A stretch of 64,000 nt of DNA from the NCBI GenBank assembly GCA_905233475.1, contig CAJOEN010000025.1, positions 1-64,000 of the forward strand. The letters run 5' to 3'. The first letter of the stretch is position 1. The number at the start of each line of letters is the position of its first letter. Source of the DNA: an uncultured Bacteroidales bacterium. Lineage in GTDB: Bacteria > Bacteroidota > Bacteroidia > Bacteroidales > P3. The notes beneath the pieces are model-generated. The model was not told the origin of the DNA. It saw only the letters and a program-made list of their open reading frames with translations, and made no database searches. Of this stretch, positions 14,089 through 62,131 are shown in pieces. Made by a program: the position numbers and the translations under genes.

Positions 14089-14139
14089 ATCCGTTTTTTT
14101 TATTTTATAACGAAGAAGAACTTTTTTATTGTTATATAG

Positions 14140-14269
14140 TGGGCTTCTATAAATTGCCTCGGAGAGGCAAACTCTCAATAACCTCGCATGCTAATGTAAG
14201 GTATATCAAGCAAATAAAGAACAGGCGTGTCGGAGACACGCGCTCTCAAACGAATAAATAGAAGTCCCC
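14140..14269 (+). mobile_element. MITE-like triloop-hairpin element, near-complete copy 1
   Basis: Terminal inverted repeats GGGCTTCTAT...ATAGAAGTCCCC; hairpins TTGCCTC-GGA-GAGGCAA and GCGTGTC-GGA-GACACGC; shared with copies at 36549, 40976, 53371. Confidence 0.8.
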
Positions 14270-14392
14270 TATATTGTAAATTGTTTCTTAAATATCGCTT
14301 CCGGAACAATTTCTTCAAAAGTTTTTTACTTTCAAAATAAAGTTACATTTTTTTCGTTATAATAAATTACAAATATAAAAAATGACATTATT

Positions 14393-32553: not shown

Positions 32554-32747
32554 GCGTGCTGAAAGCACGCCGTCCTATTAACCCCTCACAAGCGAAGCGC
32601 AGTGTGGGGACCCTCACAAGCAAAGCACCGTGTGGGGACTCGCACAAGCGTAGCGTAGTGTGGGGATAGGGAAAAAGAAGTAAACAAAAACAGTGCCGAA
32701 GGCACTACATCCTAATAACCCCTCACAAGCGAAGGGCAGTGTGGGGA
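32554..32747. repeat. Composite hairpin repeat cluster
   Basis: GCGTGCTGAAAGCACGC and AGTGCCGAAGGCACT hairpins plus four CCCCTCACAAGCGAAGCGCAGTGTGGGGA-like units. Confidence 0.9.
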
Positions 32748-32760
32748 TAAAAAAAAGAAT

Positions 32761-33555
32761 ATGAAACAATACCTTGACCTGCTCCGTCATGTGATGGACA
32801 ACGGCACCGACAAGATGGACCGCACGGGCACCGGCACACGCAGCGTGTTCGGCTACCAGATGAGGTTCGACCTCAACGAGGGTTTCCCCCTGCTGACGAC
32901 GAAAAAGCTGCACCTGCGCTCGATTATATACGAGCTGCTGTGGTTCCTCAAAGGCGACACCAACATAAAATACCTGCACGACAACCGCGTAACCATCTGG
33001 GACGAGTGGGCCGACGCCGACGGCAACCTCGGACCCGTGTACGGCAAGCAGTGGCGCTCGTGGAGATGTCCCGACGGCCGCAGCATCGACCAGATAACAC
33101 AGCTCATCAACCAGATAAAGAGCAACCCCAACTCGCGACGCCTGCTCGTATGCGCGTGGAACGTGGCGGACATCGACAAAATGGCCCTGCCGCCATGCCA
33201 TATCCTGTTCCAGTTCTACGTGGCGCAGGGAAGGCTGTCGTGCCAGCTGTACCAGCGTTCGGCCGACATCTTCCTCGGCGTGCCGTTCAACATAGCGTCG
33301 TACGCACTGCTTACCATGATGATAGCACAGGTGTGCGGCCTCAAATACGGCGATTTTGTGCATACTTTTGGCGACGCGCATATCTATAGCAACCACTTCG
33401 AACAGGTGAAACTGCAGCTCACCCGCGAGCCGCGGCCGCTGCCCAAGATGCTTATCAATCCCGACGTTAAGGACATCTTCAGCTTCGACTACCCCGATTT
33501 CACCCTCACCGACTACGACCCGCACCCGCATATCAAAGGCGATGTGGCAGTGTAG
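32761..33555 (+). CDS. thyA: Thymidylate synthase
   Basis: [55 protein letters not shown]. Confidence 0.97.
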
Positions 33556-35839: not shown

Positions 35840-36946
35840 ATGAACCGTTTGCCTGTCATTTTACTGTTATTGGTATCAAACGTCTTGATTGCACAAAAGA
35901 TACAATTTCCGTATTCGTACAAAAATGAATTTCAGGAGATACACGAAGACGACAAAGTCATAAAAATTTTGGATTCCAATCTGAAATTCATAGAATATTT
36001 CAATCCCGACTTCCATGAGTTTTTCACACCATCCGATACCGCTTACAGAGATTATTTTGTATCGGGAGAAAATGTCTATATGATTGATTCGTTGGTTATT
36101 ACAAACCACAGCTCTTATTCAATGGACTCTCAGATAGAGGGTGTGTACAAAACAAGAATAAACGGGGAAAAATTCATTATAGTGGACTTTTATGACGGTT
36201 TTCAGTTAGGTACTATGGTACAACCGCTATATTTCATTTTCAAGGAAGAGAAAGGCTCTTTTGCGTTGCAATCGGTGTATATAATTGAAAATGTGAATGC
36301 TTACGACAGTGTGGTAACAGAGTCCTTGCAAATGTTCTACGAAAACGGAAAAATAAAAATGAAAGGCATAAATTTGGTACTTTTGCGAGATCCAAATTGG
36401 CTCACTCTTCAAATACACAATGCATTATTCGAAGGTATCGTTACAAAAGACTCTCGCCACTCGCTATTCTCTCTATTAGGCCAGCCCGAGGAGATAACTG
36501 ATGTATCGAGATACCAAACCGATTGCAAAGAATGGTTAAAATACACAAGGGGGCTTCTATAAATTGCCTCGGAGAGGCAAACTCTCAATAACCTCACATG
36601 CTAATGTGAGGTATATCAGGCAAATAAAGAACAGGCGTGTCGGATGACATACCATGTTTGCGGTGATACGGCTTATTTGCAGGGAATTTATTTTCCACAA
36701 AACCCTGATGTAAAAATCATTTACAATGGAGAAATTATCGACGGAAAAATGACTATTGACGATTTTTGCAGAAAATTCAATATCAACAAGGAATATGTTT
36801 TCAGATTTTTGTTTGTCAACACCTCATGTCCTTTTGTTGATGAAGGATTTGCGTCGGTCATCATGTTATACATCAACGGCATCTATTCCGAATGTATATT
36901 TGACAGCAATCAAAGACTGGTTTACATAGGTTTCCCAACTCTTTAA
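35840..36946 (+). pseudogene. Hypothetical secreted protein apparently split by hairpin element copy 2
   Basis: ORF 35840-36562 (signal peptide MNRLPVILLLLVSNVLIAQ) and ORF 36644-36946 are in the same frame, separated by a 96-bp element that introduces TAA. Confidence 0.6.
36549..36644 (+). mobile_element. Triloop-hairpin element copy 2 (3'-truncated)
   Basis: GGGGGCTTCTATAAATTGCCTCGGAGAGGCAA...CCTCACATGCTAATGTGAGG...AACAGGCGTGTCGGA. Confidence 0.9.
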
Positions 36947-39270: not shown

Positions 39271-41016
39271 ATGAAAATTACAGAAGACCATCTGAACCCA
39301 TTTGTGCCGAACACACTGCTCGACATAGCCGGCGGACTGCTTTACCGTAAACTTAAAAAAGTTAGCAAAGACCCGCGCAAAGCAAGTGAAAAGACTCTGC
39401 GTCAGATTCTTACCTACGCCAAAGACAGTGTTTACGGCAAGGAACATCATTTCGAGGAAATTCTTAAAGCCAAAGACGATGTGGAACTCTATCGTCTCTA
39501 TCGCGAAAACGTGAAACCCAATGAGTATGAAGACCTTCGTCCATACGTGGACCGTCACAAAAACGGCGAAGCCGACATACTTTTCCCGGGCAAGCCCGTA
39601 CTTTACGCCACAACCTCCGGCGCCACAAGCAAACCCAAATGGATTCCCATCACCCAAGAGTATATCGACAACATCTACAGCAAGATGAACAAGGTGTGGC
39701 TGTACAATTTCCACCGCAACTGCAAGCATGTGTGGGAAGGCCCCATCGTCTCTATCGTAGGCAAATACATCGAAGGTTACGCCCCCGACGGCACCATGTA
39801 CGGCTCCGTGTCGGGTTACACCCAGGCCAAATGCCCCAGCTTTGTGAAGAAACTCTACGCCTCGCCGTCCGACATTTTCTATATCGAGGACTACACCGCA
39901 CGTAACTACGCCATTATGCGTATGGGTATCGAACGCAACGTGCACCTGTGCGTTACCGCCAACCCCAGCACTATGGTCGAAATGCAGAACAACGTGAACC
40001 GCTACCTCGACGACTATATAGACGACATCGAACACGGCACCATGAGCAAAAAGGTGAACATCCCGGACAAAATCCGTGCCGCCGTTCAGCCTTACCTCAA
40101 ACCAAATCCCGACCGTGCCAATGAATTACGTGAGTTGCGTGCCAAATACGGCACAGTACTACCTAAGCATTTCTGGCCCGAACTTCAGCTACTTACCACT
40201 TGGAAATGCGGAAACACCAAAGTCTATCTCGAGAAATTGGAAGGCTGTTACCCCGAAGGCATGCTACATCAGGAATTCGGCTATTTCTCGTCGGAATGTC
40301 GTTTCGGTATTGTGCTCGACGACTCCATCAACACCACCCTTTTCCCGCACTACCACTACTACGAGTTCGTTCCCGAAGAGGATTTCGGCACCGACAACCC
40401 ACGTTTCCTGCAGCTGCACGAACTTGAGGTTGGCAAACGCTACTGCCCATACTGCACAACCTTTGCAGGTCTGTACCGCTACAATATGAACGACATAATC
40501 GAGGTTAGCGACTATTTTGTAAACACTCCGCGTGTGCACATGGTGCAGAAAGTGAACGGCATAGTTACCATGACCGGCGAAAAGCTCTACGAGCCCCAGT
40601 TTATCGAAGCCGTGCGCAACGCCGAAAAAGAGACCGGACTGAAAACCAAGTTCTTCATCGGTTTCGCCGACCTCAGTATCTCGGCTTACCATTTCTACTA
40701 CGAGTTTGAAAATCAGGAGACTACCGTCGAGCAAGCCAACGAGTTCAACAAAATTGTGGACGACAACCTAAAAAAATCAAACATCGAATATCAGGCCGAA
40801 CGAGACAGTTTCCGTTTGAAAGACCCGATAGCGCACCTGCTCGAGGAGAACAGCTTCGAGAAATTCAAAGAAGCCACCCTCAAAATCACCGGTGCCGACG
40901 CCAGCCGTTTCAAACTAAACCTGCTTTTGCAGGACGAAGTGCGCCACGAACGCATGAAACAGTTCGAAAAGAAGGGGGCTTCTATAAATTGCCTCGGAGA
41001 GGCAAACTCTCAATAA
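39271..41016 (+). CDS. GH3 auxin-responsive promoter family protein; C-terminus supplied by hairpin element copy 3
   Basis: YATTSGATSKPKWIPITQEYID; ends FEKKGASINCLGEANSQ* where GASINCLGEANSQ* is element-encoded. Confidence 0.88.
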   Translation: MKITEDHLNPFVPNTLLDIAGGLLYRKLKKVSKDPRKASEKTLRQILTYAKDSVYGKEHHFEEILKAKDDVELYRLYRENVKPNEYEDLRPYVDRHKNGEADILFPGKPVLYATTSGATSKPKWIPITQEYIDNIYSKMNKVWLYNFHRNCKHVWEGPIVSIVGKYIEGYAPDGTMYGSVSGYTQAKCPSFVKKLYASPSDIFYIEDYTARNYAIMRMGIERNVHLCVTANPSTMVEMQNNVNRYLDDYIDDIEHGTMSKKVNIPDKIRAAVQPYLKPNPDRANELRELRAKYGTVLPKHFWPELQLLTTWKCGNTKVYLEKLEGCYPEGMLHQEFGYFSSECRFGIVLDDSINTTLFPHYHYYEFVPEEDFGTDNPRFLQLHELEVGKRYCPYCTTFAGLYRYNMNDIIEVSDYFVNTPRVHMVQKVNGIVTMTGEKLYEPQFIEAVRNAEKETGLKTKFFIGFADLSISAYHFYYEFENQETTVEQANEFNKIVDDNLKKSNIEYQAERDSFRLKDPIAHLLEENSFEKFKEATLKITGADASRFKLNLLLQDEVRHERMKQFEKKGASINCLGEANSQ

Positions 41017-41070
41017 CCTCACATGCTAATGTGAGGTATATCAGGCAAATAAAGAACAGGCGTGTCGGAG
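40976..41070 (+). mobile_element. Triloop-hairpin element copy 3 (3'-truncated)
   Basis: Same ~94-bp core as copy 2, ends ...GGCGTGTCGGAG. Confidence 0.9.
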
Positions 41071-53370: not shown

Positions 53371-53463
53371 GGGGGCTTCTATAAATTGCCTCGGAGAGGC
53401 AAACTCTCAATAACCTCACATGCTAATGTGAGGTATATCAGGCAAATAAAGAACAGGCGTGTC
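53371..53463 (+). mobile_element. Triloop-hairpin element copy 4 (3'-truncated)
   Basis: GGGGGCTTCTATAAATTGCCTCGGAGAGGC...AACAGGCGTGTC. Confidence 0.9.
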
Positions 53464-61535: not shown

Positions 61536-61626
61536 TATGAAGAAAAGTCCAGTGGACTTTTCGATAGCGAAGCGGAGAACAAAAAAGAAACATCCAGTGA
61601 ACTTTTCGATAGCGAAGCGGAGAACA
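61520..61626. repeat. ~107-bp direct repeat, right copy
   Basis: Same orientation as 59948-60054, about five mismatches by eye. Confidence 0.92.
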
Positions 61627-61653
61627 ACAACGCTCTCACTGTAGAAATATGTG

Positions 61654-61751
61654 GCGTGCTTTCAGCACGCTTGTTTTTGAGGGGGGGGATACCTTTTATC
61701 CCACTCTGCGTTCCTTGAGTGGGGTTATTGTGAACTCGTGCCGCTGGCACG
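61654..61751. repeat. Composite hairpin repeat, opposite orientation to 32554-32747
   Basis: GCGTGCTTTCAGCACGC, CCCACTCTGCGTTCCTTGAGTGGGG, CGTGCCGCTGGCACG. Confidence 0.8.
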
Positions 61752-62131
61752 AATTAAGTTTCTTTTACTTCATTCACAATATACATCTTTGAAAAAGCAA
61801 GCCCCTCAGATAAGACCGTCTATTTATTTGCTTACTACATATACTTTTATGTGGTTTTTCAAAAGTTTTCTCGGACACCAATAAAATTTTATTGAGTGAA
61901 TTAATTGTTTCCACCATCAGGCTCGCCTCCTCCACCACCTTGCCTGTAATGGTAAAAAGGGTGGTTTGGCGGAAAGCGCAAAAGCTATTGCCAACAAAGC
62001 GATGATTGGGAATTTCTTTTTCATTTTGTTCCGGATTTTAAATTTACATTATAACGCAGTTTGTGGTGGTGATATTGTACAACAGGCAAGGCATTTACTC
62101 TACTTTGCCGCTGATACTCAGCATATACGGA

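Follow-up and report, generated by a model that had tools for sequence, protein, structure and literature searches.

A 131-bp IS5-type MITE in a Bacteroidales genome that probably carries a three-hairpin unit of a second, Y1-linked mobile system

Two groups of described elements stand closest to the one analysed here. The first comprises the IS5-family MITEs BrickBuilt, MITE239 and MITE464 of Porphyromonas gingivalis, which are short and non-autonomous, live in Bacteroidales hosts and have terminal inverted repeats (TIRs) in common with resident IS5-family elements (PMC4596501). All of this also holds for a 131-bp element found in the window, the 64,000-nucleotide stretch of DNA from an uncultured Bacteroidales bacterium that was analysed as a whole. 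The TIR sequences of the Porphyromonas MITEs are nevertheless different from those of the 131-bp element and, whereas BrickBuilt contains internal 23-bp tandem repeats, the element described here contains a three-hairpin unit of which copies are also found outside the MITE. We call it the A-B-C unit, after its hairpins.

The second group is formed by the REP/BIME/REPIN sequences and their transposase TnpA_REP (RAYT). Like the A-B-C unit, these are dispersed palindromic units, many per genome, and pairs of them face each other across a Y1 HuH transposase gene, inverted pairs being the REP arrangement (PMC6006769). By contrast, the canonical REP foot 5' GT[AG]G is absent from the feet of the unit's hairpins, and the unit consists of three linked hairpins with a conserved linker, CTCAATAACC. 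The Y1 proteins found with the unit also differ from RAYTs, carrying Y---Q--HH where the RAYT motif is of the Y--NP type. This motif, together with a length of about 148 aa, is the signature of TnpA_Y1 subclass 1.2, whose members are Bacteroidetes proteins of about 150 aa with D/NHuH and Y---Q--HH (PMC6006769). As described, subclass 1.2 is generally without terminal IS200 secondary structures, shares no IS properties and has no REPs listed (PMC6006769), whereas here hairpin units flank many Y1 genes. A first assignment of the Y1 genes to subclass 2.6 / RAYT group 5 was prompted by this group's flanking 'atypical secondary structures', which have genomic copies, and by its occurrence in Bacteroidetes (PMC6006769). 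However, that subclass has 179 aa and the motif YIH[QN]NP, while the Y1 proteins here are shorter and lack the motif; since their Y motif mismatches subclass 2.6 and matches subclass 1.2, the genes were moved to the latter. In the open-licence PubMed Central literature, we found no description of a REP inside a MITE, or of such a Bacteroidales IS5-type MITE.

Judging from sequence comparison, the element is probably a non-autonomous IS5-family MITE that carries one A-B-C unit, the REP-like, Y1-linked component of a second mobile system. Its identity as an IS5-type MITE is well supported.

The MITE, its copies and its probable IS5-family partner

Read directly from the sequence, the complete element occupies window positions 14139-14269 and has the following parts:

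14135..14138, no strand: left copy of the target duplication TATA, 4 bp
14139..14269, + strand: complete MITE copy, 131 bp; full-length homologues at other places of the genome are 86-98% identical to it
14139..14155, + strand: left TIR, of the IS5-family left-end type, pattern GGGGRCTTCTATWWATT
14154..14170, + strand: hairpin A, 7 bp, TTGCCTC-GGA-GAGGCAA, loop GGA
14171..14181, + strand: conserved linker CTCTCAATAA, from two alignments (A1, A2)
14182..14201, + strand: hairpin B, 8 bp, CCTCGCAT-GCTA-ATGTAAGG, loop GCTA
14225..14241, + strand: hairpin C, 7 bp, GCGTGTC-GGA-GACACGC, loop GGA
14253..14269, + strand: right TIR, of the IS5-family right-end type, resembling IS right ends ...GAATAAATAGAACCCACC
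14270..14273, no strand: right copy of the target duplication TATA, 4 bp

One A-B-C unit is thus bracketed by IS5 ends, of about 17 bp on the left and about 20 bp on the right. The TIRs, inverted and imperfect as had been proposed in the preliminary description, are 17 bp long; they read GTGGGCTTCTATAAATT on the left, where the consensus among other copies is GGGGGCTTCTATAAATT, and AATAAATAGAAGTCCCC on the right, with TATA on both outer sides. The two GGA-loop hairpins, A and C, are present as that description had them, and so is hairpin B, which is perfect in other copies and has one mismatch and one G-T pair here. As single-stranded DNA, the element folds with a z-score of -2.8. Two other early statements had to be revised. 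The copy had been called near-complete, but it is complete, with a length of 131 bp; and the reading frame that is open across it had been considered as coding, but it is not a gene, for it lacks a start codon and is disrupted by small indels in homologous copies.

The element is multicopy and has no transposase of its own. A BLAST search of its own genome (G000) with the element found 41 places, and the TIR pattern matched 70 times against 4 for a control pattern. Clustered, these matches give 49 places; two of them belong to an IS end, which leaves about 47 TIR-bounded places. Identical 4-mers border 11 of the 15 two-ended copies, compared with a mean of 2.2 when the sides were shuffled; the copy at C27:25225, whose edge cannot be fixed exactly within a run of G, was excluded from this count. 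The duplicated 4-mers are TATA, ATAA, TTAA, TTTA, ACAA and TGTT. Both the proposed multicopy mobile element and the tentative idea that the AT-rich flanks are a target duplication are borne out by these data. Complete forms are of 131 bp and of about 175 bp (C1:357-530), the latter with an additional module of about 44 bp within hairpin C.

Three further copies lie in the window, each with its right end lost in assembly:

36549..36644, + strand: second MITE copy
40974..41070, + strand: third MITE copy
53371..53463, + strand: fourth MITE copy

In all 28 single-ended copies of the genome, the missing end is the one with the higher contig coordinate, whatever the strand of the element, and the break comes after about 90-100 bp; several contigs terminate about 97 bp into the repeat. 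Since the higher-coordinate end is missing on either strand and contig orientation is arbitrary, the truncation was produced by the assembler and not by decay. Truncated copies were accordingly rejected as biology, and with them the decayed partial copies of the preliminary description. Internal deletions in minus-strand copies were rejected as the same artefact; counted from the low-coordinate end, the break falls at about 95-97 bp. Some caution is needed in general, as short-read bins truncate such repeats so as to mimic decay. Two of the copies touch reading frames. The one at 36549 terminates the ORF 35840-36562, and the sequence downstream (to 36946) may be the remainder of the same gene, neither part of which has a Pfam or NCBIfam match; the one at 40974, at the 3' end of the ORF 39271-41016, provides the last codons and the stop of that ORF.

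A partner transposon with matching ends, which the preliminary description had proposed to look for, is seen as IS5-family ends at contig breaks and as complete IS copies in relatives. The ends of contigs C1 and C20 hold 97 bp of non-MITE sequence, namely GGGGACTTCTATAAATT followed by 80 bp of IS left end, which matches a complete IS of a relative (G081) at 89% identity over 81 bp. Complete elements with the GGGGACTTCTATAAATT left end occur in relatives and encode an IS5-family DDE transposase; that of a close relative matches NF033581 (IS5 family, 265 bits), PF01609 and DUF772. Their right ends read ...GAATAAATAGAACCCACC, and the same kind of end (GGTGGGTTCTATAAATTC) is found at the end of C12 and the start of C5. 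A complete partner element in this species would be expected to end in GGGGACTTCTAT / GGTGGGTTCTAT. Several IS copies of the relatives have 4-bp duplications (TAGA, TTAA, TTTA, TAAA), a length shared with the MITE copies. Since the IS5 transposase gene is not assembled in the own genome, where tblastn found only a 49% fragment, we infer the trans partner in this strain from the IS ends. The earlier view of a non-autonomous element moved in trans agrees with these matching ends, the mobilising enzyme presumably being the IS5 transposase. Two other short elements of the genome, at C8:29110-29221 and C40:36881-36990 (L103, L104), have related TIRs of the TTCTATAAATT type and different interiors, and probably belong to this IS group as further MITEs.

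The three-hairpin unit as a separate family

The A-B-C unit is composed of three hairpins, with GGA or GAA loops, and the linker CTCAATAACC, and the same order of hairpins is present in relatives without TIRs. Fifteen such TIR-less units from relatives, with no MITE and no Y1-flank sequence among them, were aligned (A1). In this alignment 98.5% of the cells are paired and 13 of 22 base pairs are changed on both sides; two-sided changes are seen in 33 cells and one-sided (G-U type) changes in only 2. The stems, for which a covariance-model check had been suggested, covary strongly. The resulting model R1, free of MITE and Y1-flank sequences, detects the core of the element at 14154-14241 (71 bits, E 1e-15) as well as the flanks of both Y1 genes of the genome. 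In total, it finds 81 cores in the genome, 44 within TIRs and 37 bare. Three of those without TIRs are located in the window:

32554..32643, + strand: three-hairpin unit without TIRs, covariance model
32691..32771, + strand: three-hairpin unit without TIRs, covariance model
61654..61752, - strand: three-hairpin unit without TIRs, covariance model

Units are present in 101 of the 190 genomes of the family and are confined to four of its twelve genera (g1, g3, g6, g7), each of which has Y1 genes too. The preliminary description had seen a mobile element built of structured hairpins. Structure and mobility both stand, but the hairpins do not belong to the transposon ends; they form a separate family-wide unit, which exists without TIRs as well and flanks Y1 genes.

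Some units vary in their composition. In several (L061, which is C1:357-530, L032, L057 and L195), a fourth hairpin module of about 39-44 bp (TGAAGAAA..CC-AGT-GG..TTTCGATAGCGAAGCGGAG) is lodged in hairpin C or in the hairpin B loop; it also stands alone, in near-tandem, at window positions 61560-61640. In hairpin C it has CGGAG on either side, as if inserted. At L053 (G005:C2:269368-272396), the linker CTCAATAACC is kept with wholly different stems (CGACGCT-GAA-AGCGTCG; CCGCAGGTCG..CGACCTGCGG), which suggests several unit subfamilies within one genome. Elsewhere in that genome, L209 (G005:C12, positions 74-164 of the locus) is a 91-bp near-perfect palindrome made of repeated GTCCGCTT. The four smallest contigs of G000 (C57-C60) have N at both ends and no readable frame.

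Units around Y1 transposase genes

Both Y1_Tnp genes of the own genome (C16:70391 and C48:14089) are flanked by units that face each other. Forty Y1 loci of other genomes show a 20-fold higher unit density up to 700 bp from the gene (64 units in 55 kb) than farther out (18 units in 318 kb; p 3e-37), with no detectable unit at 17 of these 40 genes. The nearest upstream unit lies on the strand of the Y1 gene in 14 of 15 cases and the nearest downstream unit is inverted in 14 of 17, at near-constant distances of about 70-105 bp upstream and about 155 bp downstream of the Y1 domain. As expected of a REPtron, the units are oppositely oriented around the Y1 gene and also dispersed in the genome. An exact-match search for CTCAATAACC beside Y1 genes found none; the units there carry varied linkers and were revealed by hairpin scanning and the covariance model. 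The D/NHuH and Y---Q--HH signature was present in all 42 Y1 proteins checked (147-167 aa). In 14 of 16 rows, the strong units are found with a single Y1 clade (support 100/100), which holds both Y1s of the own genome. Among the 190 genomes, 71 have both core and Y1 gene, 75 neither, 30 the core only, some of these being incomplete bins, and 14 Y1 only (p 1e-14, by a statistic that ignores phylogeny). Other Y1 genes, at L187 (G001:C50) and L208 (G002:C70), stand among arrays of different short hairpins, GTTCCCC-TAAA-GGGGAAC and ACAGCCT-GAA-AGGCTGT, which are possibly their cognate repeats.

Covarying hairpins with a conserved single-stranded linker would also fit a structured non-coding RNA, regulatory or mRNA-stabilising, that was packaged by chance in the MITE. 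We regard this as improbable, given the strong and oriented association with Y1 genes and the scarcity of one-sided changes in A1, which favours selection on DNA palindromes. In addition, the unit stayed below the Rfam gathering threshold for every family. The close, near-constant spacing could instead mean that the unit serves an IS200/IS605-like element, which carries the Y1 gene, as its transposable end and is not a dispersed REP-like unit. The ends of IS200/IS605 elements are not inverted repeats of each other, whereas the flanking units face each other; furthermore, the units vastly outnumber the Y1 genes (81 to two in the own genome), and we consider this explanation unlikely as well. 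A REP-like unit, processed as DNA by Y1 enzymes, is what the association itself suggests.

Origin and spread of the combined element

TIR and unit are joined at the same junction in 11 genomes of the sister genus g3 (control 0). The element there aligns end to end with that of G000, and a clear 4-bp duplication is seen in 6 of the 10 loci read. The combination was not seen in the three other genomes of the own genus; its occurrence in 11 sister-genus genomes indicates an established element. MITEs often arise by internal deletion and the ends do match IS5, but a plain deletion derivative with the hairpins as ordinary subterminal IS5 sequence is very improbable. In the IS copies of relatives, the left TIR is directly followed by other sequence, namely a promoter and the beginning of the transposase; moreover, the unit exists 37 times without TIRs in G000, and units occur in 101 of 190 family genomes at large.

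Under the preferred reading, an IS5-type MITE with a captured Y1-linked unit, a co-resident IS5-family DDE transposase would recognise the ends and move the element into A/T-rich 4-mers. By origin, the A-B-C unit would be REP-like, a hairpin element of DNA that subclass 1.2 Y1 (HuH) transposases recognise in single-stranded form. A single unit may have become enclosed by IS5 ends prior to the divergence of the two genera, or have been transferred between them later, and would then have spread via IS5 transposition. We give roughly even credence to the broader proposal that subclass 1.2 Y1 transposases have their missing DNA substrates in the three-hairpin units and that the MITE is a chimera of two systems. 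A Y1-type hairpin unit would then have gained IS5 ends and would spread by a second, unrelated transposition chemistry, while still being a possible Y1 target.

Subclass 1.2 enzymes have been described as relatives of IS200 transposases, generally without IS-like or REP-like DNA partners, and a defined, covarying, oriented hairpin unit beside their genes would be a direct candidate target. Furthermore, the MITE would be an example of a complete REP-like unit that was enclosed by IS5 ends and multiplied by a different transposase, and such capture may provide a route for palindromic repeats to spread between genera.
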